This document shows, piece by piece, positions 5,411 through 36,484 of a stretch of DNA of 64,000 nt. The translations under genes were made by a program, and so were the position numbers. The notes beneath the pieces were generated by a model. The model saw nothing but the letters and a program-made list of their open reading frames with translations, was not told where the DNA came from and ran no database searches. Numbering within the stretch: the first letter of the stretch is position 1; each line of letters opens with the position of its first letter. The stretch is from positions 1-64,000 of the forward strand of contig CALXAH010000012.1 in NCBI GenBank assembly GCA_944386225.1, read 5' to 3'. Origin of the DNA: an uncultured Gemmiger sp. (GTDB lineage Bacteria > Bacillota > Clostridia > Oscillospirales > Ruminococcaceae).

Positions 5411-5437
5411 AAGAGCAGTCAGAGCGCCCGCTGTACC

Positions 5438-5466
5438 TTGAGAAAAAGTACTCATTGTGGTATAAT
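5438..5466 (+). promoter_or_regulatory. Promoter of the integrase remnant
   Basis: TTGAGA (5438-5443), a 17-bp spacer and a consensus TATAAT (5461-5466) lie about 50 bases before the integrase start. Confidence 0.65.
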
Positions 5467-5517
5467 TTAGCGTGTTGCACTGGCTCTTTTTCTGCAATTG
5501 GAAAAGGGGTCAATATT

Positions 5518-17945: not shown

Positions 17946-18138
17946 GGCCAATCTGGGGGACCAGTCCCCCAGCCCCCCATTTGTCGGGCCAATACATTGG
18001 CCCTCAGGATAAAATAACATCAAGGCCGGTGCGTACACGGAATACGCACCGGCCTTGTCTTTTATAATTTCCCCAGGGCCAAATATATTTGGCCCTGATT
18101 TCCGGGGTCTGGGGGGACGTTGTCCCCCCAGATTGGCC
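17946..18138. repeat. Composite palindromic element, copy C
   Basis: Complete copy between convergent genes, starting the base after the DUF4097 stop and ending at the stop codon of the WYL regulator. The arms carry ggccaatctgggggac and ggccaatacattggcc with mirror images. The centre is a diverged hairpin aaggccggtgcg...cgcaccggcctt, a compensated change of the usual GCCCGCGC stem. Confidence 0.85.
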
Positions 18139-19143
18139 CTATTCCGCCTCGCCGTACTGCTGCGTCATGGTGGCGGCCAGCCGGGCTAGGGCGGTGCGGG
18201 CTTCGGGCGGGTCCAGCACCTGGATATCGCCGCCGAATCCGCAGACCCAGCCCCAGAACGGCGGGCTGAGCACCGCGTCCACCCACACGTCGAAATGCTC
18301 CCCGTCCGGCTGGGGCAGCAGGGTCACATCCATGCCGAACCGGTCCAGCACCGGCCCCGCCAGCCGGGCGGCGCAGCGCAGCCGCACCTTGGCCTGCGGC
18401 CCGCCGAACATCCCGAAGGTGCGCCGGGCATAGGCCGCCGGATCAAACTCCTCAAACAGCTTGCGGCCCTGCCGGTCGGCCTTCACGATGGTCAGGCGGG
18501 TCATCTTGTCCACCCGGTAATGGCGCACCACGCACTCCTCGCCGGTACCGGTGCAGCCGATCAGGTAATAGTTTTCGTTCTCCCAGGCCAGCACCCAGGG
18601 GCTTACCCGGTACAGCTGCCCGTCGTGCCGCAGCACCCGGTTCTTTTCCATGTCCCAGTCATAATACTGGAACGTGACCATCCTGTTCTGGGCGATGGCG
18701 GTGTGCAGCTCGTCCACCAGATAATAGATGCTCTCGTTCATGGTCTTGACCCGTCCGCTCACCGCCACCTGCCGCTGCAGCTGCCGGGCCTGGTGCTCGC
18801 TGGCCAGACCCTCCAGCTTGCGGATCAGCTGCTCCGACTTGCGGCGGGTGAGAAACCGGCTGGCCTGCACCGCGTCCACCAGCAGTTTCAGTTCCGGCAG
18901 CTGGAACTGCCGTTCCGCCAGGTAATACCCGCCGCCCCGGCCCCGCTGCTGCTCGATGTCATAGCCCGCGTCCCGCAGCGTTTCGATATCGCTGTACAGG
19001 CTTTTGCGCTCGGTGGGGATCTCCTGCTTTTCCAGCTCCCGGATCAGCTGCGGCACCGACAGCCGGTGCTCCGGATCGGTGCGCCGCTCAAACAGCCGCA
19101 GCAGCGCCAGCAGCTTGCCTTTCTGGCCTTCCTTTCGGGGCAT
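18139..19143 (-). CDS. WYL-domain transcriptional regulator
   Basis: A 334-residue DeoR-like regulator. The N-terminal winged HTH (about residues 8-75, with SVPQLIRELEKQEIPTERKS) is followed by a WYL ligand-sensing domain (about 140-210, WVLAWENENYYLIGC) and a C-terminal WCX extension. It starts three bases after tyrA, so it is the last gene of the long aromatic operon and may control it; a palindrome in that operon's promoter (34110-34125) is a candidate target. The ligand is unknown. Confidence 0.9.
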   Translation of the reverse strand: MPRKEGQKGKLLALLRLFERRTDPEHRLSVPQLIRELEKQEIPTERKSLYSDIETLRDAGYDIEQQRGRGGGYYLAERQFQLPELKLLVDAVQASRFLTRRKSEQLIRKLEGLASEHQARQLQRQVAVSGRVKTMNESIYYLVDELHTAIAQNRMVTFQYYDWDMEKNRVLRHDGQLYRVSPWVLAWENENYYLIGCTGTGEECVVRHYRVDKMTRLTIVKADRQGRKLFEEFDPAAYARRTFGMFGGPQAKVRLRCAARLAGPVLDRFGMDVTLLPQPDGEHFDVWVDAVLSPPFWGWVCGFGGDIQVLDPPEARTALARLAATMTQQYGEAE

Positions 19144-19146
19144 GGC

Positions 19147-20001
19147 TTACACCTCCGGCTTCTTGTCAAAGGCGGCGCGGCGCTGGCTGCTCAGCCGGAA
19201 CATCGCCTCCAGCCCCGCCGCGTCGCCCGCTTCCAGATACCCCCGCAGCTGGGTCAGCGCGGCGGTGAACTGGTCGATCTCGGCGGTCAGGTTATCCCGG
19301 TTGCGCAGAAACAGCTCGCTCCACATGGTGGGATTGATCCGGGCGATCCGGGTCAGGTCCCGGAACGAATCGCCCGTATACTCATTCAGATGCCCGTTGT
19401 CCGAGGCGCACATCAGGCTCACCGCGATGGCGTGGGTCAGCTGGCTCACATACCCGATCATCCGGTCGTGCTCCTCGGGGGTGAGCACGCTCACATGGGC
19501 AAACCCCAGCGCCGCCGCCAGCCGCTTGGCAAAAGCGATGCCCTCCGGGGTGTTGCGGGAGGTGGGGGTGATGATAAAGTTGGCGGGGGTGAACTCCACC
19601 AGATGGCTGTTGCGGATGCCGCTGACCTCCTTGCCCGCCATGGGATGGCAGGCGATGAACTCCACCGTATCCCCCAGCGCCTGCTGCACCGGCTCGATGA
19701 TGCCCCGCTTGACGCCCGCCACGTCGGTGATCAGGCAGCCGGGCTTCAGCACCGGGCCGTAGGTTCTGACCCATTCCAGCTGTGCCGCCGGGTAGAGCGC
19801 CAGCACCACCACATCGGCCTGGCGGGCCAGATCAGCGTGGTCGCCGCAGCGGCCCTGCCGGATATAGCCTTTTTCCAGGGCATAGGCCACGGCGGCCGGG
19901 TCGGTATCCGCCCCGTCCACACAGAACCCCGCCCGGGCCAGGCCCATGGCGTACCGTCCGCCCAGCAGGCCCAGGCCCACGATCAGAAACCGCTTTTCCA
20001 T
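19147..20001 (-). CDS. tyrA: Prephenate dehydrogenase
   Basis: NAD(P)-dependent oxidative decarboxylation of prephenate to 4-hydroxyphenylpyruvate, the tyrosine branch. The 284-residue protein has a Rossmann start LIVGLGLLGGRYAMGLARAG and the substrate motif CHPMAGKE. It ends after the helical dimerisation domain with no ACT domain, so feedback control by tyrosine is not evident. It lies 20 bases after aroA in the same operon. Confidence 0.94.
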   Translation of the reverse strand: MEKRFLIVGLGLLGGRYAMGLARAGFCVDGADTDPAAVAYALEKGYIRQGRCGDHADLARQADVVVLALYPAAQLEWVRTYGPVLKPGCLITDVAGVKRGIIEPVQQALGDTVEFIACHPMAGKEVSGIRNSHLVEFTPANFIITPTSRNTPEGIAFAKRLAAALGFAHVSVLTPEEHDRMIGYVSQLTHAIAVSLMCASDNGHLNEYTGDSFRDLTRIARINPTMWSELFLRNRDNLTAEIDQFTAALTQLRGYLEAGDAAGLEAMFRLSSQRRAAFDKKPEV

Positions 20002-20021: not shown

Positions 20022-21308
20022 TTATTCTTCTTCCGCCACCGGCACGCCCAGGCTGCGCACCACGTCAAAGAACGCGGGCCAGCTTTTGGCCACCGCTTCG
20101 GCTCCGTGAATCCGCACCGGCAGCTGGGCCGCCAGGGCGGCCACCGTCAGCGCCATGACCACCCGATGATCGTTGTGGCCCTGCACTTCGCCCGGCATCA
20201 CCAGCGGCCCGCCCGCGATGGTCACGGTATCCTCGGTGCTGCGGATCTGCACCCCGAACCGGCGCAGTTCTTGCTCCATGGCGGCGATCCGGTCGCTTTC
20301 TTTCAGCCGCAGACGGCCCGCGTTGCGGATCACCGTTTTGCCCTTGCAGAAGGCCCCCAGCACCATCAGGATGGGGCCCAGATCCGGGCAGTCTGCCAGG
20401 TCGATCTCCACGGCGGTCAGCTCGCTTTTCGCAAACTGCACCGCGTCGCCGGTGCGGGTGAACCGGGCGCCGCACCGCTGCAAAATCTCCAGAATGGCCG
20501 CGTCCCCCTGGCCGCTGGCCGGGGCCAGGCCCTCCACCGTGATATCTCCGCGCAGCGCGCCCAGCATGGCGAAAAACGCGCCCTGGCTGTAATCGCCCTC
20601 CACGGTGTATTCCCGGTTCTGGTACCGCTGGTTGCCGGGCACCTCCAGCCGGGCGGCCGCCCCCTGGGGCAGCTGTTCATCCGGCACAAACCGGGCTTTC
20701 ACCCCGAAATCCGCCAGCGCGGCCAGGGTCAGGTTCACATAGCTGCGGCTCTCAAAGGGCGGGGTGATGGTGATGGAACTGTCCCCCATCATCAGCGGCA
20801 GCGCAAACAGCAGCCCGCTGATAAACTGGCTGGACACGTCCCCCGCCAGCCGGTATTCCCCCGGGCGCAGGCCGCCCTTGATGAGGATGCCGGTTTCGTT
20901 CTGGCAGAACATCCGGCCCTGCTGCTCAAAAATTTCCGCGTAGGGGCCCTGGGGCCGCTGCATCAGCCGCCCCCGGCCGCAAAACCGCACCTGCTGCCCG
21001 GTCAGGCTGCACACCGGGATCAGAAACCGCAGGGTGCTGCCGCTCTCGCCGCAGTCGATGGGGGCCCGCAGGGTGGCAAAACCGCCCCGGCCCTCGATAT
21101 CGGCCCAGTTTTCCCGAATCTCCACCCGGGCACCCAGCTGACGCACTGCGTTCAGGGTGGCCAGCACGTCCTGGCTGTATTCCAGGTTGCGCACCCGGCT
21201 CAGCCCCCGGGCCAGCCCGGCGGCCAGCACCGCCCGGTGAGCCATACTTTTGGACGGCGGCGCGGTGACCCGGCCTGCCGGTCTGCCCGGCTGCAATACG
21301 GCGATCAT
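20022..21308 (-). CDS. aroA: 3-phosphoshikimate 1-carboxyvinyltransferase (EPSP synthase)
   Basis: Condenses shikimate 3-phosphate with PEP. It has 428 residues and the two-domain inside-out barrel. Landmarks are PSKSMAHRAV (Lys for phosphate/PEP), CGESGSTLRFLIPV, DYSQGAFF and RLKESDR. A ribosome site AAGGAAG lies ten bases before the ATG at 21308. It follows the seventh glycosyltransferase by 19 bases, so the glycosyltransferases are almost certainly on the same transcript. Confidence 0.95.
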   Translation of the reverse strand: MIAVLQPGRPAGRVTAPPSKSMAHRAVLAAGLARGLSRVRNLEYSQDVLATLNAVRQLGARVEIRENWADIEGRGGFATLRAPIDCGESGSTLRFLIPVCSLTGQQVRFCGRGRLMQRPQGPYAEIFEQQGRMFCQNETGILIKGGLRPGEYRLAGDVSSQFISGLLFALPLMMGDSSITITPPFESRSYVNLTLAALADFGVKARFVPDEQLPQGAAARLEVPGNQRYQNREYTVEGDYSQGAFFAMLGALRGDITVEGLAPASGQGDAAILEILQRCGARFTRTGDAVQFAKSELTAVEIDLADCPDLGPILMVLGAFCKGKTVIRNAGRLRLKESDRIAAMEQELRRFGVQIRSTEDTVTIAGGPLVMPGEVQGHNDHRVVMALTVAALAAQLPVRIHGAEAVAKSWPAFFDVVRSLGVPVAEEE

Positions 21309-21327: not shown

Positions 21328-22428
21328 TTATCGGTTCCAGTTTCCGCCCAGCAGGTAGTAACCGGCCCAGTCTATCCGGCCAAACCAGCGGCTGTGCGAA
21401 GCATCCAGCTTCCACAGCCAGCCCGCTGCCTTGAACAATCCCGGCCGAAGCCAGAAGATATATGGCGAATACTCCTTGTGCCGTCTGCACCAGCTGCGCA
21501 GCGCGTTCAGACAGGGATGCCGCCGCAGTTCCCGGTCCAGCCGGCCGGCGGCGCAGGCTTCGGCGGCGCTGCGCAGATAATACCGCACCAGCGATCCCTG
21601 CGGCGCAAAATACTGTTCCGGGAAATCCGGCTCCCAGGCAAGCAGGCCGTCCCATTCCCGGTGCAGGCGTTCTGCGATATCCGGCCGGGGCGTCATCGCC
21701 TGTTTGGCTTCTTTTGTTCCGGGCCGGACGGTTGTGGACAGGGATTGTTCGTTGACGGTACGGTATTCGTACAGCGCATTGCGGCACAAAACCATTTTCC
21801 AGCCCTGAGCCGGCCGGCAGGCCCGCAGATACTGCAGCACAAACTCACCGTCCTCGCAGATCACGGAAGCGCCGGCCCGGCCCAGTTCCAGGTCAAACCT
21901 GAGATGCGCGTCCTCAATCGCCTGACGGCGGAAGAGCCTTTGACACACCGTGTTGTACAAAATATTCAGGTACGCGTAACCATCCAGCGCCTCTTTGGGC
22001 AGGCTGACGCTCTCCAGCGGGGCGGCGGCATTCTCCGCCAGCGCCTGGGCCGAGCGCACAAAAGGCCACAGCACCATGGCTTCCGGTTCCTGCCGCTGCA
22101 AACGGCCGGCGTATTCCGCCAGCCGGGGGCTTACCCGGTCATCCGCATCCACAAACAGCAGGTAATCCCCGCGCGCCGCCTCGATACCGGTGTTGCGGGC
22201 GGCGGAAACCCCGCCGTTCGCCTGGTGGATCACCCGGAACCGGGGATCGGCGGCGGCCCGTTCGTCACACAGGCGGCCGCTGCCATCGGCAGAGCCGTCA
22301 TCCACCAGGATGCACTCCCACCCGGACGTCTCGGTCTGGGCGGCAATGCTGTCCAGACAGGCAGGCAGCCAGGTTGCCGCGTTATATACCGGTACGATGA
22401 TGCTCAGCCACACACTTTCCACCTTCAT
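21328..22428 (-). CDS. Family 2 glycosyltransferase, copy 7 of the array
   Basis: GT-A fold inverting glycosyltransferase, 366 residues, without membrane helices. N-terminal domain: SIIVPVYNAATWLPACLDSI, ECILVDDGSADGS (nucleotide site), GGVSAARNTGI and the DxD-type FVDADD. Its C-terminal half lacks the helical signature shared by the other six copies, but the last residues (YYLLGGNWNR) match those of copy 6 exactly. The ATG overlaps the stop of copy 6. It is the copy nearest aroA. Donor and acceptor are unknown. Confidence 0.93.
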   Translation of the reverse strand: MKVESVWLSIIVPVYNAATWLPACLDSIAAQTETSGWECILVDDGSADGSGRLCDERAAADPRFRVIHQANGGVSAARNTGIEAARGDYLLFVDADDRVSPRLAEYAGRLQRQEPEAMVLWPFVRSAQALAENAAAPLESVSLPKEALDGYAYLNILYNTVCQRLFRRQAIEDAHLRFDLELGRAGASVICEDGEFVLQYLRACRPAQGWKMVLCRNALYEYRTVNEQSLSTTVRPGTKEAKQAMTPRPDIAERLHREWDGLLAWEPDFPEQYFAPQGSLVRYYLRSAAEACAAGRLDRELRRHPCLNALRSWCRRHKEYSPYIFWLRPGLFKAAGWLWKLDASHSRWFGRIDWAGYYLLGGNWNR

Positions 22429-23522
22429 CGGTTCCAGTTTCCTCCCAACAGATAGTAGCCCGCCCAGTAGAGTTTCCAGTAAAGGCGCTTGGCGCCGCTC
22501 TCGTCCGAGTGGTAGACCGCCCGCACCAGGGCGGCGTTGCCCAGCACGAAGGGCCAGTAGTAGGCGTGGTAGTATTTCACCTGTTTCATCCAGGCCAGCA
22601 TCCGGCGGGTTTCCGGCCCGCGCAGCAGGGCCCGGGGCACCGGCTCGCCCAGTTCACGGGCGGCCCACACGCCGAAGGCGAACCGCCGCAGATACTGCCG
22701 GCAGATGCTGTTGGCGTCCTCCAGGGGGATGGCGCCGAAATCGCCCACCGCCTCCAGCACGCCGGCGCACTCGGCCTGTACCTTGGCGGCGTAGCCCCGG
22801 TACTGCTCCGGCTCCCAGTCCATCTGGTGGCCGGTGCCCTTCTGCTTGGACAGGCTGCCCACGGTGGTGGTGTCCCAGTAATAGAGGGGCATATCGGTCT
22901 GGCGGATGGCGCTGTCCGGATAGGCCTTGAAGTGGGCCTCGTGATAGGCCTGGCAGAAGGGGATATCGTTGCTGTTGCGCAGCGTCACGTCAAACCGCAC
23001 GTTGTACCGGCGGATGACCTCCGCATGGAACAACCGGTTGTACAGGTTGCCCGATTTATACGTAACGTAATATGCCGGCAGTTTCGCCGCCGGGTAGACC
23101 CACTCCCGGTAGGGCTTGTCCAGCGCGTCCGGCCCGGCCAGTTCGGCCAGGTCGGTGACGAAATCCCACACGATCAGGTCATTCGGGTACTGGGCCTGGC
23201 GGCGCAGGGCCCACTGGATCATCAGGGGGCTGGCTGCGTCGTCGGAATCCAGGATCAGGAAATACTCGCCCCGGGCGGCCTCGATGCCGGCGTTGCGGGC
23301 GGCGCAGGCGCCCCCGTTTTTCTGGTGGATCACCCGGATGCGGCTGTCCCTGGCGGCGTACTCGTCGCAGATTCTGCCGCTGTCGTCGGGGCTGCCGTCG
23401 TCCACCAGGATGAACTCAAAATCAGGATCGGTCTGGGCCAGCACGCTCTCGATGAACCGGGGCAGCACCGCCGCCACCTTATACACCGGGCTGATGACCG
23501 AAACGCGGGGTTTGGTTTCCAT
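22425..23522 (-). CDS. Family 2 glycosyltransferase, copy 6 of the array
   Basis: A 365-residue GT2 enzyme. VSVISPVYKVAAVLPRFIES, FILVDDGSPDDSGRICDEYA and FLILDSDD define the GT-A catalytic domain (residues 1 to about 210). The C-terminal half carries the array's shared signature RFAFGVWAARELGEPVP followed by HAYYWPF. It ends in YYLLGGNWNR like copy 7, which points to recent duplication or recombination between the two. It lies 12 bases after copy 5. Confidence 0.93.
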   Translation of the reverse strand: METKPRVSVISPVYKVAAVLPRFIESVLAQTDPDFEFILVDDGSPDDSGRICDEYAARDSRIRVIHQKNGGACAARNAGIEAARGEYFLILDSDDAASPLMIQWALRRQAQYPNDLIVWDFVTDLAELAGPDALDKPYREWVYPAAKLPAYYVTYKSGNLYNRLFHAEVIRRYNVRFDVTLRNSNDIPFCQAYHEAHFKAYPDSAIRQTDMPLYYWDTTTVGSLSKQKGTGHQMDWEPEQYRGYAAKVQAECAGVLEAVGDFGAIPLEDANSICRQYLRRFAFGVWAARELGEPVPRALLRGPETRRMLAWMKQVKYYHAYYWPFVLGNAALVRAVYHSDESGAKRLYWKLYWAGYYLLGGNWNR

Positions 23523-23534
23523 CTTGTTCCTCCT

Positions 23535-24629
23535 TTATCGGGTGCGCCATTTGCCGCCCAGGGCGTACCAGCCCAGCCAGTACACCTTCCAGAACAGCTT
23601 TTTGCTGTCGCTCTCGTCCGACTGGTACATGGCCCGCACCAGCGGGGTGCACTGTATCCGCAGCGGCCAGTAATAGGCGTTGTACAGCTTCTTTCTGCCC
23701 ATCACGCCCAGCAGTTCCCGGATCTCGGGCCAGCGGTAGAAATCCCGGGGCACCGGCTCGCCCAGTTGGTGGGCGGCCCAGAGGGCAAAGGCAAACCGGC
23801 GGCAATACTGGCGGCACAGGTTGACCGCGTCCTCCACCGGCACCGCGTCCAGCCCGCCCATGGAATCGCTCATCTGCCGGTACTCCTGCCGCAGCAGGGC
23901 CAGGTAGCCCCGGAACTGCTCCGGCTCCCACTCGATGGGATGGGCGGCCACCGCCTTTTTGCTGGCCCGCTGGGCCCCGTTGTCCCCGTGGACGATGTAA
24001 AGGGGCAGGTCGTACTGGCGCACGATGGAGTCCGGCCGGGCGGCGAAAAAGGCGTGGAAATAGGCGATGCAGAACTGCATGTCCTCGCCCCGGGGCTGGC
24101 CCACCGGGTACTGCACCCCGCCCTCCCGGATGACCGACGCGTCAAACAGTTTGTTGGTCACGTTGGCGCTGGGCACCGTGAAGATGTAGGCCTGCAGCTG
24201 GTCTTTGGTGTACTGCTTGCAGGGGGGCGCGTCAAAATCCGGCGGGGTCTGGGTCTGGTCGTGCAGCACCCAGCCGATCAGATCCCCCGGATGGCGGGCC
24301 TGCCGTTCCAGCGCCCAGGCCGCCGTTTCGGGCAGGATGGTATCGTCCGCGTCCACGAACAGGAAATAGGGGGCCCGGGCCGCCTGGATGCCCGCGTTGC
24401 GGGCGGCGGATACCCCCTGATTCTCCTGGTGCAGCACCCGGAACCGGGCGTCCTGTTCTGCCCACTGGCGGCAGACGGCCAGACTGCCGTCGGCGGAACC
24501 GTCGTCCACCAGCACGCACTCCCAGTCGGGGGTGGTCTGGGCGGCGATGGAGGCCAGGCACCGGGGCAGCAGCTTTTCCAGGTTGTACACCGGCACGATG
24601 ATGCTTACGGCGGGGTTTTCACGGGGCAT
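23535..24629 (-). CDS. Family 2 glycosyltransferase, copy 5 of the array
   Basis: A 364-residue GT2 enzyme with VSIIVPVYNLEKLLPRCLAS, CVLVDDGSADGS, GVSAARNAGIQAAR and FVDADD. The C-terminal signature is RFAFALWAAHQLGEPVP then NAYYWPLR. The ATG at 24629 was preferred over a GTG two codons upstream because GGAG lies eight bases before it. Soluble, no signal peptide. Confidence 0.93.
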   Translation of the reverse strand: MPRENPAVSIIVPVYNLEKLLPRCLASIAAQTTPDWECVLVDDGSADGSLAVCRQWAEQDARFRVLHQENQGVSAARNAGIQAARAPYFLFVDADDTILPETAAWALERQARHPGDLIGWVLHDQTQTPPDFDAPPCKQYTKDQLQAYIFTVPSANVTNKLFDASVIREGGVQYPVGQPRGEDMQFCIAYFHAFFAARPDSIVRQYDLPLYIVHGDNGAQRASKKAVAAHPIEWEPEQFRGYLALLRQEYRQMSDSMGGLDAVPVEDAVNLCRQYCRRFAFALWAAHQLGEPVPRDFYRWPEIRELLGVMGRKKLYNAYYWPLRIQCTPLVRAMYQSDESDSKKLFWKVYWLGWYALGGKWRTR

Positions 24630-24654
24630 GGGCACATCTCCTCACAAAGCGGAT

Positions 24655-25845
24655 TTACAGGGTATCGGGGCGCTTCCACGTTTTGGCGCCCTCGATGTAA
24701 TAGAACAGCCAGTCGAAATGGCCGAAGTTGGCGTCGTGCAGCTGGCTCCATACGTACATCTGCTCGGCCAGGCGCCGCCAGCGCAGCCGCAACGGCAGCC
24801 AGTAGGCAATGTGGATCCGGTTGGCGGCGCACCAGCCCAGCAGCTTTTGCAGCCGCTCGTCCTTCCAGAAGCCCTTGGGCAGCGGCTCGTGCAGCTGCCG
24901 GGCACACCACAGGCCGAAGCAGACGGCGCGCATATAGTGCTGCATAAACGGGAACACCTGCTCGGCCGTCATTTCCCACAGGCCGGGAACCCGGGCTGCT
25001 TTTTCCCCCAGTTCCGCCAGGATGTGGGGCAGATAGCCCGGCTGTGCCTCGTCCAGCAGGGAACCGGCTTTGGCATTTCGTTCCACCACTGTACGGATGA
25101 TGGAATCGGTGGTATTGAGGGTATGGCAGTACAGCGGCATGGGCAGGTAAGCGATCAGGGGATCTTCGGGCAGGCAGGCCATATAGCGGCGCACAAAATC
25201 CACATCCTCGCCGCCGCTGGTATTGGCCCTGCCCAGCTGTTCGTTGAACCAGATCCCCTTGTTCCGGATCAGATCCCCGTCAAACAGCTTATTCCACACA
25301 TGTACAAACAGGGTTGTGCCGTTGCCGGTATAATGCATGATCTCCATCTGGCTTCGGGGCAACAGCTGCATCTGGTAGGGATCCGTCTGCCGGCGCTGCG
25401 CTTCCTCGGGGGAGCGGGTGCTGTTCCAGACCACAAACGCCTCGGGAACCTCTTTCTGGGCGCGCAAGGCATATTCCAGTTCCTGCGGGACAAGCCAGTC
25501 GTCCGAATCCGCGCATGCGATCCAGCGCCCGCGCGCAATCCGCAGCGCCGCATTTCGCGCCGCGGCCGGGCCGCTGTTGGGGATATGCACAGCCCGGAAC
25601 CGCTTATCCGCCTGTGCGATCCGGTCACACAGGGCGGGCGTACCGTCGGCTGACCCGTCATCCACCAGGATGCATTCAAAATCCTCCATGGTCTGGGCCT
25701 GGATGCTGTCCACACAGCCCTGCAGCCAGCGTTCCGCGTTGTAGGCCGGCACGATGATGGTGATTGCCGGACAGCATCCATCCTGCGGAGCAGATGCTCC
25801 GCAGGCGGCGGTACCGCCGCGCACGGCGGGATTGGCTTCACGCAT
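24655..25845 (-). CDS. Family 2 glycosyltransferase, copy 4 of the array
   Basis: At 396 residues it is the longest copy, because of an N-terminal extension of about 28 residues (MREANPAVRGGTAACGAS...) before ITIIVPAYNAERWLQGCVDS. The acidic metal site reads ACADSDD rather than FVDADD. C-terminal signature: AVCFGLWCARQLHEPLP then IAYWLPLRL. The coding GC is somewhat lower than in its neighbours. AAGGAGAG precedes the ATG. Confidence 0.92.
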   Translation of the reverse strand: MREANPAVRGGTAACGASAPQDGCCPAITIIVPAYNAERWLQGCVDSIQAQTMEDFECILVDDGSADGTPALCDRIAQADKRFRAVHIPNSGPAAARNAALRIARGRWIACADSDDWLVPQELEYALRAQKEVPEAFVVWNSTRSPEEAQRRQTDPYQMQLLPRSQMEIMHYTGNGTTLFVHVWNKLFDGDLIRNKGIWFNEQLGRANTSGGEDVDFVRRYMACLPEDPLIAYLPMPLYCHTLNTTDSIIRTVVERNAKAGSLLDEAQPGYLPHILAELGEKAARVPGLWEMTAEQVFPFMQHYMRAVCFGLWCARQLHEPLPKGFWKDERLQKLLGWCAANRIHIAYWLPLRLRWRRLAEQMYVWSQLHDANFGHFDWLFYYIEGAKTWKRPDTL

Positions 25846-25864
25846 AGTTTCGCTCTCTCCTTTG

Positions 25865-26971
25865 TCAGTCCCAGCGGCCGCCCAGCAGCAGCTTCTGCGC
25901 CAGGATCATCCGGTAGTACCAGACGGTTTTCCGGTTGTCCCAGTCGTACATGGCGGCCACCAGTCTGGCGCTGCCCAGTCGGAAGGGCAGGTAGTAGGGG
26001 GTATAGCGGCGGCGGGCCAGCAGGCCGTCCAGCAGGGCGGTGACCTCCGGGCCGCGCAGATACCCGGCGGGCAGGGTCTCGCCCAATTCCCGCGCGCACC
26101 AGGCCCCGTAGGCCAGGCACCGCAGGTAATGGCGGATGGTCACATAGCCCTTGTCCGGCTCGGCAAACAGGTCGGCGTACTCGGTCAGATTGGCGCGCAG
26201 TTCCGCCAGGATGCCGGGGGCGTAGCCGGGCTTGGCCGCGTCCGCGTCCCGCTTGAACTGGCCGTACCGGGCCTCGTACCGGGTGACCAGGGATTCCGGG
26301 TTATCCATCTCGTGGTAGTAGCGGGGAACCGGCAGGTAGGTGTACAGCCGGGGCTTGTCCGAGAAGAAGTTCTCCTGGTACTGCTGGAAGAACACCTCGT
26401 CCTCGCTCAGGTTGTGCTCGTAGCCCAGCTCCCTGTCGAACCGCATACCGAACTGTTTGATACAGCCCGCCTGGAACAGCTTGTTCCACACCTGCACCCC
26501 CTGGCCCTTGGAGGTGAACATCATCTGCACCTCCAGCCCCCGCATCAGGGTTTCGGCAAAGGGTTCGGCGGCGCGGCGGGCCAGCTCGGCCTCGTCCAGG
26601 GTCAGCTCCCACATGACCAGCCGGTCCGGGTGGGCCAGCTGGCTGCGCATGGCGTATTCGATCAGGTGGGCCTCGATGGCGTCGTCCGCGTCCACAAAGA
26701 AGATATACAGCCCCACCGCCGCGTCGAGACCGGCGTTGCGGGCGGTGGACACGCCGCCGTTTTCCTTGTGGATCACCCGCACCCGGGGATCTTTCCGGGC
26801 GTAGGAATCGCAGATGGCGCCGCAGCCGTCCGGGCTGCCGTCATCCACCAGGATAAGCTCAAATTCCGGCCAGGTCTGGGCCAGGATGCTGTCCACGCAC
26901 CGGGGCAGGAATTTTTCGCAATTCCACACCGGCACGATCACGGAGACCAGAGGGGTCTGTTCCGGCTGCAT
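25865..26971 (-). CDS. Family 2 glycosyltransferase, copy 3 of the array
   Basis: A 368-residue GT2 enzyme: VSVIVPVWNCEKFLPRCVDS, LILVDDGSPDGCGAICDSYA, GVSTARNAGLDAA, FFVDADD. The shared C-terminal signature appears as CLAYGAWCARELGETLPAG then YTPYYLPFRLGSARL. A good ribosome site (AAGGAGGTACCCCC) precedes the ATG. Confidence 0.93.
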   Translation of the reverse strand: MQPEQTPLVSVIVPVWNCEKFLPRCVDSILAQTWPEFELILVDDGSPDGCGAICDSYARKDPRVRVIHKENGGVSTARNAGLDAAVGLYIFFVDADDAIEAHLIEYAMRSQLAHPDRLVMWELTLDEAELARRAAEPFAETLMRGLEVQMMFTSKGQGVQVWNKLFQAGCIKQFGMRFDRELGYEHNLSEDEVFFQQYQENFFSDKPRLYTYLPVPRYYHEMDNPESLVTRYEARYGQFKRDADAAKPGYAPGILAELRANLTEYADLFAEPDKGYVTIRHYLRCLAYGAWCARELGETLPAGYLRGPEVTALLDGLLARRRYTPYYLPFRLGSARLVAAMYDWDNRKTVWYYRMILAQKLLLGGRWD

Positions 26972-26995
26972 GGGGGTACCTCCTTGACGTGGTGT

Positions 26996-28099
26996 TCAGG
27001 CCCGCCAGCCCGGGCCGGGGATATGGCGCATCACCGCGGCGGCCCGGTAGTACCAGGGGCTGCGGGTGCGCTCGCCGGCGTAGAGCCGGGTGATGAGGGC
27101 GGCGCTTTTCCAGCGGAAAGGCCAGTAGAACGGGTAGTACCGGCCCCCGGCGCGCAGCGCGTCCAGGCACCAGGTCACCTCCGCCCAGCGGAAGAAGTCC
27201 GCGGGCAGACGCTCGCCCAGCCGGGCGGCGCTCCATACGCTATAGGCAAAGCAGTGCAGATAGTGCAGGGCGGTGGGCACGGCCTGGTCACCGGTGAAAA
27301 AGGCGGGGAATTTCTCCTGCCTTTCCCGGAATTCCCCGCGCAGTTTTTCCGCGTAGCCGCTCTCGGGCACCTCGTCCATCTCGGTGCGGGGGGCGGGGGC
27401 CGATTTTTTCAGGTTGGTCATGATGGAGTTGGGGTTATTGCGCCGGTAGAAGTAGAGCGGCTCGTCCAGATACCGGAATCCCTGATCCGCATCCGCCAGG
27501 AACAGCTGCATATACCGGGTGGAGAAAAGCGCGTCCTCCCCGGGGGCGTTCTTGCGGCCGTCCGGGTCCACAAAGGAGAAGTTGTTTTGGGTCAGGATAT
27601 CCCGGCGGAACAGCTTGGTGTTGACCCCGGTGTGCAGCGCGATCTGCAGAAAGATCAGCTGCATCTCCTCCTGGGAACAGCGGCGGTGGGTGCGGGGCAT
27701 CCCGGGCAGAGCCCGGTACTCCTCCCAGTCGCTGGTGGAGCGCCAGATGGTCAGGTCACGGGGGTACTGCTTCTGGGTGGAGAGGGCAGCCTCCAGCAGG
27801 CAGGGGGCCATGGCGTCGTCCGCATCGAAGAAGTAGACCCACTGGGTATCGGCGGCGGCCAGACCCGCGTTGCGGGCGCTGGAGGCCCCGCCGTTGGGCT
27901 TGTGGATCACGGTAAAGCGGCTGTCCCGCCCGGCCCACTCGTCGCAGACCGCGCCGCTGCCGTCGGTGGAGCCGTCGTCCACCAGCACGCATTTCCAGGC
28001 CGTGAAGGTCTGGGCGGCGATGGAGGCCAGGCAGACCGGCAGAAACTCGCCGGCGTTCCACACCGGCACCACGATGGTCAGTTCAGGGGTGTTGGGCAT
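26996..28099 (-). CDS. Family 2 glycosyltransferase, copy 2 of the array
   Basis: A 367-residue GT2 enzyme: LTIVVPVWNAGEFLPVCLAS, CVLVDDGSTDGSGAVCDEWA, GASSARNAGLAAA, YFFDADD. The shared C-terminal signature is CFAYSVWSAARLGERLPADF then YYPFYWPFRW. The upstream GAGGTACCCCC ribosome region resembles that of copy 3, another sign of tandem duplication. Confidence 0.93.
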   Translation of the reverse strand: MPNTPELTIVVPVWNAGEFLPVCLASIAAQTFTAWKCVLVDDGSTDGSGAVCDEWAGRDSRFTVIHKPNGGASSARNAGLAAADTQWVYFFDADDAMAPCLLEAALSTQKQYPRDLTIWRSTSDWEEYRALPGMPRTHRRCSQEEMQLIFLQIALHTGVNTKLFRRDILTQNNFSFVDPDGRKNAPGEDALFSTRYMQLFLADADQGFRYLDEPLYFYRRNNPNSIMTNLKKSAPAPRTEMDEVPESGYAEKLRGEFRERQEKFPAFFTGDQAVPTALHYLHCFAYSVWSAARLGERLPADFFRWAEVTWCLDALRAGGRYYPFYWPFRWKSAALITRLYAGERTRSPWYYRAAAVMRHIPGPGWRA

Positions 28100-28118
28100 G
28101 GGGGTACCTCCTCAGCGT

Positions 28119-29228
28119 TCATTCTCCGGCGTTGGCTTTCCAGCCGGGCAGCAGCAGGCGGAACAGCTGACAGAACCGGAAGAAGGGGGCCTGCTTGAGT
28201 TCGTCCCACTGGTAAAGCCGGGCGGCAAAGCCGAACATCCGCCGCCGCAGCGGCAGGTAGTAGGGATTGAAGATGCGGTTTGTCCGCCACCAGTCCAGCA
28301 GTTCGGCCAGTTCGGGGCCATTGGTCAGTTCGCCGGGGCGGCCTTCCCGCAGCTGTTCCGCACACCAGAGGCTGAAAGCAAAGCACCGGGTATAGTGCCG
28401 CACAAAGGCGATGGATTCCAACGGGGGAATATCGGTCAGGCGGGCCGGCATCTCGGCCCGGGCCGCCCGGTATTCCGCCAGGATAAAGGCCGCGTAGCCC
28501 GGCTCCGGGTCGGGCAGGGTCAGTTCCTGGCGCTGGGTAGCGGTACGGGTGATGCTGGTGCGGTTGTCCGGATAGTGGAAGTAACGGGGGGTGGCGGCGT
28601 AGGCCATGGGTACGGGACTGTCCGGCCAGCGGGCGGCCAGGTACTGTTCCATAAACAGCTTGTCCTCGCCCAGGTTATCCCGCTTGCCCAGGGTCTCGTC
28701 AAACCGCAGCCCCGCCGCCCGCACCGCCGCGGTGTTGAACAGCTTGTTCCAGATGGTCACGAAGATGGAGCCGCAGGGATGGCGGCGCAGCATGGAGTCC
28801 CCGTCGGTGAGCTCGAACTCCAGCGGCTTTGCGGAGGCGGCGGCAAAATCGGCCGCGTCCCGGGTGTAGCCCCACATGACCAGCCGGTCGGGATGGGCGG
28901 TCTGCATGGCCACGGCGTATTCCAGGCTGTGGGGATCCATGGCGTCGTCCTGGTCGCAGAAGGTGAACCACTCGCCCCGCAGCTGGGCCAGGGCCGCATT
29001 GCGGGCGCTGGAAACGCCGCCGTTCTCCTTGTCCAGCAGGCGGAACCGGGGGTCTTGTTCCGCCAGGGCAGCACAGACAGCCCGGCTGCCGTCGGTGGAA
29101 CCGTCGTTGACCATGACGCATTCAAAGTTCTGGTAGGTCTGGGCCTGCAGGCTGCCCAGGCTGCGTGCCAGCCATTGCTCGCCGTTGTAGACGGGCAATA
29201 TCACGCTGACCAGCGGCTGTTCGTTCAT
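28119..29228 (-). CDS. Family 2 glycosyltransferase, copy 1 of the array
   Basis: First glycosyltransferase in transcription order, 369 residues: VSVILPVYNGEQWLARSLGS, CVMVNDGSTDGS (VND instead of VDD), GVSSARNAALAQL and FCDQDD. The shared C-terminal signature is CFAFSLWCAEQLREGRPG then FNPYYLPLRR. It follows aroF by 81 bases with AGGAGAGGTG before the ATG. No terminator is evident in that gap. Confidence 0.93.
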   Translation of the reverse strand: MNEQPLVSVILPVYNGEQWLARSLGSLQAQTYQNFECVMVNDGSTDGSRAVCAALAEQDPRFRLLDKENGGVSSARNAALAQLRGEWFTFCDQDDAMDPHSLEYAVAMQTAHPDRLVMWGYTRDAADFAAASAKPLEFELTDGDSMLRRHPCGSIFVTIWNKLFNTAAVRAAGLRFDETLGKRDNLGEDKLFMEQYLAARWPDSPVPMAYAATPRYFHYPDNRTSITRTATQRQELTLPDPEPGYAAFILAEYRAARAEMPARLTDIPPLESIAFVRHYTRCFAFSLWCAEQLREGRPGELTNGPELAELLDWWRTNRIFNPYYLPLRRRMFGFAARLYQWDELKQAPFFRFCQLFRLLLPGWKANAGE

Positions 29229-29309: not shown

Positions 29310-30326
29310 TTACATATCCCGGCCCACCACGCGGGCGATGGCGCGGCATTTGTCGATCACCTGGCGGAACTTGTCCGGTTTCAGGCTCTGGGCGCCGTCG
29401 CTCCAGGCGTTCTGGGGATCGTTGTGCACCTCGATGATCAGGCCGTCGGCTCCGGCGGCCACCGCCGCCAGGCTCATGGCCTCCACGTACCGCCAGTTGC
29501 CGGTGGCGTGGCTGGGGTCGATGATGATGGGCAGGTGGGTCTTTTCCTTGATGATGGGAATGACCGACAGATCCAGGGTGTTGCGGGTATAGGGCTCAAA
29601 GGTGCGGATGCCCCGCTCGCAGAAGATCACGTTCTCGTTGCCGCCGGCCATGATGTACTCGGCGCTCATGATCCACTCCTCGATGGTGTTGGCCAGGCCG
29701 CGCTTGAGCAGCACCGGCTTTTTCATCTTGCCCACCGCCTTGAGCAGCTGGAAGTTCTGCATATTGCGGGCGCCGATCTGCACCAGATCCACGTACTGCT
29801 CGAACTCCTCGATCTTGTCCTCGCTCATGAGCTCGCTGACGATGGGCAGGCCGGTGAGTTCCCGGGCCTTGACCATGTCCAGCACGCCCTCGGTGCCCAG
29901 GCCCTGGAAGGCGTAGGGGGAGGTGCGGGGCTTGTAGGCGCCGCCGCGCAGCATGGAACCGCCGGCCTCCTTGACCGCCTTGGCGATGTCCACCACCTGG
30001 GCCTCGCACTCCACGCTGCAGGGGCCGCCGATGACGCAGATCTTTTCCTTGCCGCCGATCTTGACGCCGTTCACGTCCACGATGGTGTCGGCCTCATGGA
30101 ACAGCCGGTTGGCCTTTTTGTAGGGGGCGGACACGCGGGTGACGCTTTCCACCCAGGGGTTGGCGGCCACCTGCTTCTCGTTGACCTTGGTGGTGTCGCC
30201 CACGATGCCGAACACGTTGTAGTCGGTGCCGCGGATGAGGGTGACCGACAGGCCCTGGGCCTCGAAGCCGGCGATGATTTTCTGGATTTCTGCCTGGGGC
30301 GTGCCCCGTTTGGTTGAAATGATCAT
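29310..30326 (-). CDS. aroF: 3-deoxy-7-phosphoheptulonate synthase (DAHP synthase)
   Basis: First committed step of the shikimate pathway (PEP + erythrose 4-phosphate). A 338-residue type I-beta enzyme with an N-terminal ferredoxin-like regulatory domain (about residues 1-70) as in the Thermotoga enzyme. The barrel has VIGGPCSVE, the KPRTSPYAFQG active-site strand, LLKRGLANTIEEW and IIDPSHATGNW. That N-terminal domain usually mediates Phe/Tyr feedback. The ATG overlaps the aroQ stop by four bases. Confidence 0.96.
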   Translation of the reverse strand: MIISTKRGTPQAEIQKIIAGFEAQGLSVTLIRGTDYNVFGIVGDTTKVNEKQVAANPWVESVTRVSAPYKKANRLFHEADTIVDVNGVKIGGKEKICVIGGPCSVECEAQVVDIAKAVKEAGGSMLRGGAYKPRTSPYAFQGLGTEGVLDMVKARELTGLPIVSELMSEDKIEEFEQYVDLVQIGARNMQNFQLLKAVGKMKKPVLLKRGLANTIEEWIMSAEYIMAGGNENVIFCERGIRTFEPYTRNTLDLSVIPIIKEKTHLPIIIDPSHATGNWRYVEAMSLAAVAAGADGLIIEVHNDPQNAWSDGAQSLKPDKFRQVIDKCRAIARVVGRDM

Positions 30327-30775
30327 TGTGGTACAGTTCCTTTCCCGGTAATGATTTGCTGCAAGAAGCGCGCCGCGTTCACATAGCCCTCAATGCCCTG
30401 GCCGATAAAGTGGCCCTGGCAGGCCATGCCGGCGTAGCTGATCTGGCGGAAGGGTTCCCGCTTGGTCACGTCGCTGATATGTACCTCGGCGGCGGGCAGC
30501 GCCACCGCCTTGAGCGCGTCCAGAATGGCGATGCTGGTGTGGGTGTAGGCCCCCGGATTGATCACGATGCCGTCCGCGTACTGCAGCGCGTCCTGGATCG
30601 CGTCCACCAGATCCCCCTCGTGGTTGGATTGATAAAATTCGGTTTCGATGCCCAGCGCATCGCAGCAGGCGGCCACATACTCCACCATGCCGTTGTAGTC
30701 CACCGTGCCGTAGATGCCCGGTTCCCGGATGCCCAGCATGTTCAGGTTGGGCCCGTTCAGTATCAACAGTTTCAT
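30323..30775 (-). CDS. aroQ: Type II 3-dehydroquinate dehydratase
   Basis: Third shikimate-pathway step, dodecameric type II enzyme, 150 residues. Visible motifs are LILNGPNLNMLGIREPGIYG (flexible lid with catalytic Arg/Tyr), INPGAYTHTSIAI, and HISDVTKREPFR. Overlaps aroC and aroF by four bases at both ends. Confidence 0.96.
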   Translation of the reverse strand: MKLLILNGPNLNMLGIREPGIYGTVDYNGMVEYVAACCDALGIETEFYQSNHEGDLVDAIQDALQYADGIVINPGAYTHTSIAILDALKAVALPAAEVHISDVTKREPFRQISYAGMACQGHFIGQGIEGYVNAARFLQQIITGKGTVPQ

Positions 30776-31896
30776 GCTTCGCTTCCTTTCCGCTGCCAGT
30801 CCAGCCCGGCGCTCTGGGTCAGCAGATCCAGAAGGCCCAGGGCCACCATGCTGTCCTGCACCACCCGTGCCCGGGGCAGGATGCAGGGGTCGTGCCGGCC
30901 CTTGAGCTGCAGGGTGGCCGGCCGGCCGGCGGACAGATCCACCGTGGCCTGCTCTTTGAAGATGCTGGGGGTGGGCTTGATGACGGTGCTGAGCAGCAGC
31001 GGCATGCCGTTGGTGATGCCCCCGTTGACCCCGCCGTTGTGGTTGGAGCCGGTGATCACCCGGTCCTGCCAGAGCAGGAAGGGGTCGTTGGCCTGGCTGC
31101 CCCGCATCTCCGCCAGGGCAAAGCCGCTGCCGAACTCCACCCCTTTGACCGCCGGGATGCTGAACAACAGATGGCTCAGCACGCTTTCCACGCTGTCAAA
31201 GAAGGGCTCGCCGATACCGGCGGGCAGGCCCAGCACGGCGGTTTCCAGCACGCCGCCCACGCTGTCCCCGTCGGCGGCCGCGGCCTTGATGGCCGCCCGC
31301 ATGGGCTCCTCAAAGGCGGCGTCCAGCACCGGCAGGCCCTCGGTGCGCGCGTCCAGCGCGTCCAGCTGGCGGGCCAGACGGTCGGGTTCCGCGGCAAAGC
31401 GGCTGCCCTCGATGCCCGCGCACCGGATGATGTGGGTGCCCACCCGCACCCCGTGGGCGGCCAGCACGCTCAGGCACAGGGCCCCGGCGGCCACCACCGG
31501 CGCGGTGAGACGGCCGGAAAAATGCCCGCCGCCCCGGCTGTCCTGCCAGCCCTGGTACTTGGCCAGGGCGGTGAAATCCGCGTGGCCCGGCCGGGGCATA
31601 ACGGCCAGCTGGTCGTAATCCCCGGAGCGGGTGTTGGTGTTCTCCAGCACAAACGTGATGGCGGTGCCGGTGGTATGCCCTTTATACACGCCGCTCAGAA
31701 AGCGGACGGTATCCGGCTCGGTGCGGGCGGTGGTGAGCCCGTCCCCCCGGGCGCGGCGCTTGTCCATCTGGCGGGCGATGAAATCCTCGTCCACCGGCAG
31801 GCCCGCGGCCAGGCCGTGCAGCACGCCGCCCACCGCCGGGCCGTGGCTTTCGCCGAAAACCGTCAGGTTCACGGCGCTGCCGAAGCTGTCCCTCAT
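30772..31896 (-). CDS. aroC: Chorismate synthase
   Basis: FMN-dependent elimination of phosphate from EPSP to give chorismate. At 374 residues it shows GESHGPAVGGVLHGLAAGLP near the N-terminus, RPGHADFTALAKYQ, and RGGGHFSGR. No flavin reductase domain is seen, so reduced FMN must come from elsewhere. 30 bases separate it from aroB. Confidence 0.96.
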   Translation of the reverse strand: MRDSFGSAVNLTVFGESHGPAVGGVLHGLAAGLPVDEDFIARQMDKRRARGDGLTTARTEPDTVRFLSGVYKGHTTGTAITFVLENTNTRSGDYDQLAVMPRPGHADFTALAKYQGWQDSRGGGHFSGRLTAPVVAAGALCLSVLAAHGVRVGTHIIRCAGIEGSRFAAEPDRLARQLDALDARTEGLPVLDAAFEEPMRAAIKAAAADGDSVGGVLETAVLGLPAGIGEPFFDSVESVLSHLLFSIPAVKGVEFGSGFALAEMRGSQANDPFLLWQDRVITGSNHNGGVNGGITNGMPLLLSTVIKPTPSIFKEQATVDLSAGRPATLQLKGRHDPCILPRARVVQDSMVALGLLDLLTQSAGLDWQRKGSEA

Positions 31897-31926: not shown

Positions 31927-32955
31927 TCAGGCCTTGTCCAGGCCCACCAGTTTTTCCAGTGCCTCCAGCGGCGCTTTGTCCAGCCGCCAGCAGCCCAGCC
32001 CCGGCACCTTGACCAGGGTGACGCTGCCGCCCCGGGCCTTCTTGTCGTGCCGCATGTAGGCCAGCACCTGTTCCTTGTTATAACTGGCCCGGGCGGGCAG
32101 GCCCAGCTTGCGGTAGACCGCCCGCACCCGCTTTTGCAGCTGCTTGTCCTCGATCATGGGCAGCATGCCCAGGGCCACGCACTCCCCGTGGAAATAGCCC
32201 CTGGTACGCCGGCCCTTGATGCCCCGCACCGCCTCGATGCCGTGACCCAGGGTATGGCCGAAGTTCAGCGCCGCCCGGGCGCCGTGCTCGGTCTCGTCCT
32301 GCTCCACGATCTTCTTTTTCACCAGCAGGCTGCGGTAGATGATATCCTCGATGTCCGCGTCCACGTCCCCGTTTTCAAACAGCAGAAACAGCTGCGGGTC
32401 GCAGATCAGGCCGGCCTTGATGGCCTCGGCCAGGCCGTTGATGTAGTGGCGGCGGGGCAGGGTGGACAGGGTGTCCGGATCAATGACCACCAGTTTCGGC
32501 TGCCAGAAGGCGCCCACGATGTTCTTGGCGTCCCCCAGGTCCACGGCCACCTTGCCGCCGATGGAGGAGTCGATCTGGGACAGGGTGGTGGTGGGGCAGT
32601 TGATGAAGTCCACCCCGCGCATGAAGGTGGCGGCCACAAAGCCCGCCAGGTCGCCCACCACGCCGCCGCCCACGGCGATCACCAGACCGCCCCGGTCCAG
32701 CCCGGCGTCCAGCGCCTGCTGCAGCAGCTGCCCGTAGACCTTCAGGCTTTTGCTGGCCTCCCCCTGGGGCACGGTGGCGATGGTGCCTTTGGGGCACTGG
32801 GCGGCCACCCTTTGGGCGTATTCGGCGGGCACGCCGCTGTCGGTGACGATCAGCACCGGCCGGTCCAGCCAGGCCAGCTGGCTCAGGTTATCCAGCGCGC
32901 CGCGTTTCAGGATGATATCGTAGCTGCGGGGGCCAAGACGCATGGAAAGTTTCAT
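31927..32955 (-). CDS. aroB: 3-dehydroquinate synthase
   Basis: NAD- and metal-dependent cyclisation of DAHP to 3-dehydroquinate. It has 342 residues with VIAVGGGVVGDLAGFVAATFMRG split over the NAD site, PTTTLSQIDSSIGGK, and the metal ligands in LNFGHTLGHGIE. The ATG overlaps the pheA stop by four bases. Confidence 0.96.
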   Translation of the reverse strand: MKLSMRLGPRSYDIILKRGALDNLSQLAWLDRPVLIVTDSGVPAEYAQRVAAQCPKGTIATVPQGEASKSLKVYGQLLQQALDAGLDRGGLVIAVGGGVVGDLAGFVAATFMRGVDFINCPTTTLSQIDSSIGGKVAVDLGDAKNIVGAFWQPKLVVIDPDTLSTLPRRHYINGLAEAIKAGLICDPQLFLLFENGDVDADIEDIIYRSLLVKKKIVEQDETEHGARAALNFGHTLGHGIEAVRGIKGRRTRGYFHGECVALGMLPMIEDKQLQKRVRAVYRKLGLPARASYNKEQVLAYMRHDKKARGGSVTLVKVPGLGCWRLDKAPLEALEKLVGLDKA

Positions 32956-34034
32956 ACAGTTTCTCCTTTTCGGGTATAGATGCCCAGCACCCGCACGGTG
33001 CGGCAGACGGTTTCCAGCCCGGCCAGCAGCTGCCGGGCGTCGGGGGCGTCGGCGGCGCCCACCAGCTCCACATAGAAATAGTATTCAAAGGGCACATGGG
33101 GCATGGGGCGGCTTTTGATGCACTCCATGTTGAAACCCGCGGCGCCGATCGCCTGGATGACCCGGGCCAGGGCCCCGGCCTTGTGATCCACCGTGAACAG
33201 CAGGCTGAACCGGTTGCCCCGGGCGGGCAGTTCCTTGCCCACCACGATAAACCGGGTGGTGTTGTCCCCGTCGGTGTTGATGTCCCGCATCAGCACCTGC
33301 AGGCCGTAGAGTTCGGCGGTCTCGGCGCTGGCGATGGCGGCCAGGGTCCTGTCGCCGCTCTCGGCCACCCGGCGGGCGGCCAGGGCGGTGTTGGCGCAGG
33401 GTTCGGCGGCCAGGCCCACGCCGCGGATGAACCGCTCGCACTGGCTGAGCGCCTGGGGATGGCTGGTGACCCGGCGCAGATCCCCCAGCGCGGCACCCGG
33501 CAGCGCCAGCAGGTTCTGGGTCACCGGCAGGTCGTACATCTCCACGATATGCAGCCGGTGGCCATAGCACAGATCCAGCACGGCGGACACGTCCCCGGCG
33601 TGGCTGTTCTCAAAGGGAAGCACCCCGTAGGCGGCGCTGCCCTGTTCCACCCGGTCGAACACGTCGGCCCAGGTGGGGCAGGCCATGGCCTTGGCCTGGG
33701 GAAACAGCCTTGTCAGGGCGATGTGGGCAAAGGCGCCCTCCACCCCCTGATAGGCCACCGTGTCCCGCCCCAGGGCGTGGGCCTGGTACTGGCGGGAAAC
33801 CGCCATGGCCGCCTTCTGAAACTCCGCGTAATAGGGGCGCAGGGCGGCGTCCCGGATGCGGGCGGTGTTCTTTTCGATCACCTGTTCCTCCCGGGCGGCG
33901 TCCAGCACCGGGATGTCGTGTTCCTGCTTGTAGGCGGCCACCCGGGCCACCTGGGCCATCCGCTGTTCAAACAGGGCGGCCATCTGCGCGTCGATCTCGT
34001 CGATGGCATGGCGGGCGCGCTCCAGTTCCTCCAT
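32952..34034 (-). CDS. pheA: Bifunctional chorismate mutase/prephenate dehydratase (P-protein)
   Basis: Leads from chorismate to phenylpyruvate. Three domains in 360 residues: an AroQ-type chorismate mutase (1-85, ERARHAIDEIDAQMAALFEQ), prephenate dehydratase (about 90-270, with FENSHAGDVSAVLDL and the TRF active-site motif) and a C-terminal ACT domain (about 280-355, HKAGALARVIQ and IKSRPMP), which normally senses phenylalanine. It is the first gene of the aromatic operon. Confidence 0.95.
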   Translation of the reverse strand: MEELERARHAIDEIDAQMAALFEQRMAQVARVAAYKQEHDIPVLDAAREEQVIEKNTARIRDAALRPYYAEFQKAAMAVSRQYQAHALGRDTVAYQGVEGAFAHIALTRLFPQAKAMACPTWADVFDRVEQGSAAYGVLPFENSHAGDVSAVLDLCYGHRLHIVEMYDLPVTQNLLALPGAALGDLRRVTSHPQALSQCERFIRGVGLAAEPCANTALAARRVAESGDRTLAAIASAETAELYGLQVLMRDINTDGDNTTRFIVVGKELPARGNRFSLLFTVDHKAGALARVIQAIGAAGFNMECIKSRPMPHVPFEYYFYVELVGAADAPDARQLLAGLETVCRTVRVLGIYTRKGETV

Positions 34035-36471: not shown

Positions 36472-36484
36472 ATATCGGCCCTCT

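Follow-up and report, generated by a model that had tools for sequence, protein, structure and literature searches.

A variable row of family 2 glycosyltransferase genes in an aromatic amino acid operon of Gemmiger and its relatives

Introduction

Tandem variable glycosyltransferase (GT) loci and the exchange of glycan specificity are known kinds of variation. In the lgt-type loci of Neisseria, recombination makes strains differ in how many related tandem GT genes they carry and in which ones, and in streptococci tandem soluble GTs glycosylate surface proteins such as serine-rich adhesins. Variable surface-glycan loci are usually sought within polysaccharide clusters. The locus described here is a row of seven family 2 GT genes between aroF and aroA, inside an aromatic amino acid operon of an uncultured Gemmiger sp. 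(assembly GCA_944386225.1, contig CALXAH010000012.1, positions 1 to 64,000; this stretch of 64,000 nucleotides is called the window). Because the array sits in a housekeeping operon, annotation reads past it. Family 2 GTs at this site vary in number and content across related species while remaining under purifying selection. At some positions the 5' or middle part of the gene differs sharply between conserved borders, and at one of them, slot 4, it does so against the species tree. We read the array as a polymorphic glycan-specificity locus for which the aromatic amino acid operon is the host site, with a probability of about 0.6.

Results

The array lies on the minus strand between aroF, encoding 3-deoxy-D-arabino-heptulosonate 7-phosphate synthase (29310..30326; TIGR01361 above cut-off), and aroA (20022..21308; TIGR01356 above cut-off). 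The seven genes are GT1 (28119..29228), the second cassette GT2 (26996..28099), GT3 (25865..26971), GT4 (24655..25845), GT5 (23535..24635), GT6 (22425..23522) and GT7 (21328..22428). A preliminary description of this DNA had noted seven same-strand GT genes here, and they are intact open reading frames of 365-396 amino acids that all match PF00535 (108.8-122.2 bits vs a cut-off of 23.3; E from 3.6e-31 to 2.7e-35, with 1.5e-31 for GT1, 3.6e-31 for GT2, 2.7e-35 for GT3, 2.9e-34 for GT5 and 1.1e-32 for GT6). They are 31-42% identical to the first copy. GT5 has a GTG start, and an alternative gene call starts two codons later. From open reading frame coordinates, gaps between GT genes are -4 to 24 bases, where up to 26 had been given; the 19 bases between GT7 and aroA stand as described, and the 81 bases between aroF and GT1 had gone unmentioned. 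The GC fraction of the array is 0.650 vs 0.640 for the window.

GTs are present between aroF and aroA in four of four genomes of the source genus: seven in the window strain, nine in Gemmiger sp. An120 (NZ_NFLN01000014.1), eight in BRZ_AM bin27 (CALXIA010000003.1; hereafter BRZ) and six in SI.B54 (CASFJO010000032.1). In a second genus (g58) all five genomes have GTs at the site (4, 4, 4, 4 and 1). In a third (g12), genome G131 has one and G014 has none, its aroF and aroA matches being 81 bases apart. Comparison of this interval in related genomes, which the preliminary description had proposed, thus places the array at the same site in three genera and not at unrelated loci, and its retention at just this site across three genera argues that the arrangement is not due to chance. 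Only GTs were called between aroF and aroA in 10 of 10 arrays, and none of these intervals is a complete polysaccharide cluster with export or polymerase genes.

Genomes with no GT between the two genes are common. Searches for aroF and aroA, each in 148 genomes, found aroF directly beside aroA in 14 survey genomes with a close aroF (at least 65% identity; G014 included), with 8-257 bases between the matches. That count left out distant aroF genes (about 62% identity or less), G033, where some 19 kb of a single contig separate aroF from aroA, and G048, whose aroF is at the end of a contig and which gave no match for aroA. Synteny was read at 24 of 48 loci (L001-L020, L031, L035, L037, L041), and in Faecalibacterium, Fournierella and others (L004-L017, L031, L041) aroF is next to aroA with no GT at 16 of 16. 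An empty junction is thus the usual condition, with the array as a derived one. An order-wide search (394 genomes, E<=1e-95) gave matches only in the two genomes of the source genus that were in its draw. A survey of 247 genomes scored at most eight candidates per genome and would miss arrays below its thresholds; its per-genome counts are lower bounds, and full counts come from locus-level searches.

Five slots form a conserved core. GT1, GT2, GT3, GT5 and GT6 are shared by all four genomes of the source genus in the same order and follow the species tree, with 47-95 sites each for that tree vs 1-7 for either alternative. The ratio of nonsynonymous to synonymous substitution rates (dN/dS) is 0.08-0.34 at these slots and 0.03-0.32 at seven operon genes, so that purifying selection is equally strong on the core slots and on the aro genes. 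An120 and BRZ have two additional cassettes, X before GT1 and Y after it, that are absent from the window strain and SI.B54. Synonymous divergence (dS) between the two carriers is ordinary for X (0.30) and higher for Y (0.60), and for X loss in two lineages is the simplest account. Four long gaps were tested for remnants of lost cassettes; none was recognisable, and besides self matches there were only matches of 13 and 18 bases.

Slot 4 has a different history. The window strain and An120 are mutually nearest among the four genomes (96-98% nucleotide identity over seven operon genes). At slot 4 the identity is 65.5% between window and An120, 74.9% between window and BRZ, and 84.5% between An120 and SI.B54. 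The slot has 194 informative sites, of which 161 group the window with BRZ (vs An120 with SI.B54), 23 follow the species tree and 10 fit the third grouping. A maximum chi-square test placed a break at residue 318 of GT4, within W-C-A-R-Q-L-H-E-P-L-P, at a value reached in none of 1000 permutations. Sites for window with BRZ and for the species tree number 160 vs 12 before the break and 1 vs 11 after it. Upstream, flanking identity stays high to about the start codon, and beyond the motif each 100 columns are 91-98% identical. The first ~950 nucleotides, in which the window is nearer to BRZ than to its closest species An120, group against the species tree and look exchanged. Given the position of the break, the signature W-[CAS]-A-x-x-L-x-E-x-x-P would also be the crossover point in GT4. 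A general role of this motif as crossover site is suggested only by identical stretches of 24 and 31 bases that GT5 and GT6 share there, and protein conservation could also give these.

Slot 7, the interval between GT6 and aroA, is empty in BRZ and SI.B54, holds GT7 in the window strain and holds a cassette with another middle part in An120. The two cassettes are alike over about 300 nucleotides close to their 5' ends, at 72-87% per 60 columns, and agree at most of the 75 columns that precede aroA (52/57, then 17/17). As a control, 30 cassettes of the source genus gave 396 pairs from different slots. The slot-7 5' parts are 78.9% identical, above all 396 pairs (mean 65.1, maximum 73.2); the middle parts are 39.3% identical, and 386 of the pairs are as high or higher (mean 47.3); the last 16 codons are 83.3% identical, and 8 pairs are at least that similar. 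The cassettes therefore share their 5' end, whereas their middle parts are no closer than those of different slots; they too look exchanged. An exact 49-base repeat occurs at the ends of both GT6 and the slot-7 cassette in An120.

A palindrome, GCGGAGC-4-GCTCCGC, is located near the 5' end of GT4 (25785..25802) as the sole exact copy in the 3.38 Mb genome. It is also near the 5' end of slot 4 in SI.B54 (L053 8467-8484) and near that of slot 7 in An120 (L051 5431-5448). Among 75 loci it occurs in the An120 and SI.B54 stretches only (L001 and L002 being the same two stretches). In the window and SI.B54 it is in frame, within an N-terminal extension.

The encoded proteins are of one type. All 48 array proteins have D-x-D-D, which contains the D-x-D metal/nucleotide motif. 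Six of the seven window GTs carry W-[CAS]-A-x-x-L-x-E-x-x-P, as had been described, but Y-[YW]-x-P-x-R, attributed to the same six, matches exactly in only four of the seven. Copies 6 and 7 do end alike, in YYLLGGNWNR; this tail is a recurring 3' box that is also seen in related GTs elsewhere, such as a polysaccharide-cluster GT in L062. Array GTs have a GT-A fold, represented by an AlphaFold2 model of GT3 (mean predicted local distance difference test score 90), with a core similar to TarP/TarS-type GTs; the best fold matches in the PDB are CgT, TarP, TarS and RmlT. Sequence profile matches to TarS and TarP end at positions 229 and 256 of 369. VIA-align gave no separate match for the C-terminal part, which was covered within the whole model and not folded alone.

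A tree of 80 proteins (48 array GTs and 32 polysaccharide-cluster relatives scoring above 200 bits in fetched loci) places 47 of the 48 array GTs in one clade (support 95/93). GT5 groups with slot 2 of g58 (100/97), and at least some cassettes therefore predate the split of the genera. The only GT that G131 has at its aro locus is the sister of window GT7 (100/100). The nearest outside relatives are in ATP-binding cassette (ABC) transporter polysaccharide clusters, beside Wzm/Wzt-type genes. One such cluster, on contig C17 of the window genome, has Wzm/Wzt-type ABC genes, a cytidine monophosphate (CMP)-sugar transferase, an HMGL-like protein, a DegT aminotransferase, FdtA and several GTs. Its exporter permease (E<=1e-60) was found in 26 of 247 genomes of the family draw, and these include all eight in which the array was recognised. 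When the window strain is compared with An120, identity is 94-99% for the exporter and the genes at C17:51-62 kb (94-98% for the exporter and the GT genes) and 44% for the array-type GT there, a second copy of which is missing in the window strain. The CMP-sugar transferase by the exporter (C17:44311-46666; L049 14312-16667) is 39-40% identical between the window strain and three relatives, and among these three An120 has 96% identity with each of the others. Only a little sequence lies beyond this gene in the relatives' stretches, so the comparison covers window genes down to about 45.9 kb.

The whole minus-strand run is pheA-aroB-aroC-aroQ-aroF, the seven GT genes, aroA-tyrA and a WYL-domain regulator. 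It begins with pheA (chorismate mutase/prephenate dehydratase, 32952..34034; NCBIfam mutase domain above cut-off, dehydratase models below), aroB (31927..32955; TIGR01357 at 304.5 bits vs a cut-off of 305, missed by half a bit), aroC (30772..31896; TIGR00033 above cut-off) and aroQ (type II dehydroquinase, 30323..30775; TIGR01088 above cut-off). After aroA come tyrA (prephenate dehydrogenase, 19147..20001), for which all NCBIfam prephenate dehydrogenase models are under cut-off, and the WYL gene (18139..19143; PF13280 5.1e-10, PF25583 1.1e-08). Outside its chorismate mutase domain pheA, like tyrA, reaches no full-length NCBIfam cut-off. A terminator-like hairpin of 16 pairs follows the WYL gene (18021..18057, minus strand). 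In the window aroC and aroQ (31896-30323) overlap by 4 bases. The two genes are separated in g58 (G221, Pfam-checked) by a shikimate dehydrogenase-shikimate kinase fusion, and a 53% relative of the fusion is on another contig of the window genome (C21:9205-10398).

The preliminary description had embedded the array in the aro operon and had seen no flippase, polymerase or nucleotide-sugar gene nearby. Embedding is supported by the layout: one strand, tight spacing, no internal promoter-like site and the 16-pair hairpin after the WYL gene. A scan of ten proteins, the WYL protein and those of nine flanking genes at 13.4-18 kb and 34.4-40.3 kb, detected no such export or sugar gene among the nine; 40-64 kb was listed for open reading frames only, and 1-13 kb was outside the scan. 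An ABC exporter gene at 36445-37938 looks broken, since its membrane part (36518-37372; Pfam match from profile position 80) and its ATPase part, seen by eye in the open reading frame, are in different frames. Promoter-like sites are at chance level (3 vs 2.2 expected), and apart from the 16-pair hairpin the terminator-like sites are weak. Folding of the 81-base gap between aroF and GT1 is no better than in shuffles (z -0.28). Rfam at the gathering threshold gave no match in the whole window. The single match upstream of pheA at E<=1, M23 RNA, was discarded (20.5 bits vs a gathering score of 41.2).

Discussion

Array function and substrate are inferred here from fold, namely the TarP/TarS/RmlT-like catalytic core, and from co-occurrence. 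A GT gene of an ABC-exported cell-surface polysaccharide cluster would have been copied into the aroF-aroA junction in an ancestor of at least two genera and would then have multiplied in tandem. The GTs, made from the aro transcript, would work in the cytosol, perhaps touching the membrane through an aromatic, mostly net-positive C-terminal tail, and would add sugars, one linkage per slot, to a polymer that an ABC exporter then exports. Gain, loss or exchange of a slot would alter the surface glycan much as at serotype loci, and slot swaps between species probably change the surface sugars of the bacterium. From its linkage to the aro genes the array would gain constant expression and conserved flanks at which to recombine, and array and aromatic metabolism would remain uncoupled.

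A more specific form of this model is offered tentatively. The junction may be a slot-based combinatorial glycan-coding locus, in which cassettes with conserved ends carry an exchangeable specificity part. Crossovers would occur within the conserved catalytic stretch of the 5' part, within the W-[CAS]-A-x-x-L-x-E-x-x-P block and within the box at the 3' terminus. Through exchange between species each strain would acquire a surface glycan of its own, and the essential operon would guarantee expression and conserved flanks.

Several observations weigh against a polymorphic glycan-specificity locus. The fold matches cover the GT-A core (about residues 5-225), with whole-chain root-mean-square deviations of 7.8-9.3 Å. 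The argument that the slots hold alleles comes from four genomes, one per species. Selection at slot 4 is looser (dN/dS 0.29-0.71). The An120 slot-7 cassette, its ninth gene, is outside the array clade on a long branch; at L051 ~5401-5518 the short frame that starts at an ATG behind a ribosome-site-like sequence differs from the frame of the slot-7 GT, and this copy may be silent or may use a later start. Location of the array on the aro transcript is read from layout, and terminator-like sites on both strands of 18-35.5 kb number 20 vs 11.4 in shuffles (standard deviation 3.4), five of them weak (5-6 pairs), on the array strand and all within GT genes. The hypergeometric figure for co-occurrence of array and exporter, 5e-9, ignores shared ancestry and is descriptive. 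Variation at the C17 cluster also extends beyond the array-type GT: the window strain and An120 are 39% identical at the CMP-sugar gene and 79% at a 332-amino acid gene, and what follows the CMP-sugar gene in three relatives is a gene without a match in the stretch from the window strain. Array-type GTs are therefore among the variable parts of that cluster and not the sole ones.

The GTs could instead glycosylate a surface protein, for instance a serine-rich adhesin, flagellin or pilin. They look soluble (no 19-residue hydrophobicity mean above 1.67 and no clear membrane helices), and the top PDB entry by sequence and fold together is 5hea (GalT1/CgT), a streptococcal adhesin-glycosylation enzyme. 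However, the 5hea match spans the common GT-A core only, and by tree the nearest relatives are in a polysaccharide export cluster. No candidate acceptor is among the nine flanking genes scanned, an accessory secretion system not having been searched for. Glycosylation of a protein is thus unlikely.

Another explanation is that the array ties surface glycan synthesis to phenylalanine and tyrosine supply, one operon answering one signal, with decoration falling when these amino acids are plentiful. The single-operon layout is present in 10 of 10 arrays with a WYL regulator after tyrA each time, and the array has no promoter-like site of its own, all of which speaks for this explanation. A similar operon is nevertheless found in relatives that lack the array, and 11 of 16 such loci carry the WYL gene, so that the presence of the regulator does not follow that of the GTs. 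The Rfam search upstream of pheA found no family, T-box included. We consider supply coupling rather improbable; a regulatory link to aromatics may exist, and a metabolic one is unlikely.

The differences at slots 4 and 7 could also be due to fast divergence, or to ancient paralogy with differential loss, and not to exchange. All slot-4 genes of the four genomes fall in a single clade (100/100), which makes a donor from elsewhere unnecessary at slot 4, and with only two cassettes at slot 7 a species-tree test is impossible there. Against this, dS between the window and An120 is 0.78 at slot 4 vs 0.06-0.22 at twelve other operon genes, and nucleotide identity jumps within the slot-4 gene from 43-74% to 92-98%. 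Divergence or paralogy as the source of both differences is very doubtful.

Modification of a pathway product (glycosylated shikimate, chorismate or another aromatic compound), which the preliminary description had raised from the gene neighbourhood, is extremely improbable: aro gene order is largely the same in genomes without the GTs, the nearest kin are in a surface-polysaccharide cluster, the best structural matches work on surface polymers or adhesins, and one small molecule would require up to nine diverse GTs. A surface glycan is better supported than a glycosylated aromatic product.

If the array is a polymorphic glycan-specificity locus, strain-level surface variation in these gut bacteria, including targets of phages, antibodies and host lectins, is partly coded at the aroF-aroA junction and could be typed from sequence. 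The array would also be a natural set of related GTs with exchanged parts for locating the specificity region.

Comparison with known systems sets the locus apart in several ways. The array GTs have their nearest identified relatives in the C17 ABC-transporter polysaccharide cluster, where profile matches run over almost the full length, but the cluster has its own exporter, nucleotide-sugar and GT genes, whereas the array has GTs only. Of the 48 array GTs, 36 carry W-[CAS]-A-x-x-L-x-E-x-x-P, vs none of the 32 cluster relatives from fetched loci. The wall teichoic acid GTs TarP and TarS of Staphylococcus aureus and RmlT of Listeria have a similar GT-A core; the array differs in having as many as nine tandem copies within a biosynthetic operon, and the likeness shown is that of the core. 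Like the lgt-type loci of Neisseria, the array is a row of related GT genes that vary in number and content. Unlike them, it is inside an amino acid operon and all its copies are one kind of family 2 protein; no repeat-tract switching was identified in it, no dedicated tandem-repeat scan having been made. A few term searches of the open-access literature, a weak test, did not find this combination in print. The parts are of known kinds, and the combination is an array with no export genes in an essential amino acid operon, with exchange within its slots.

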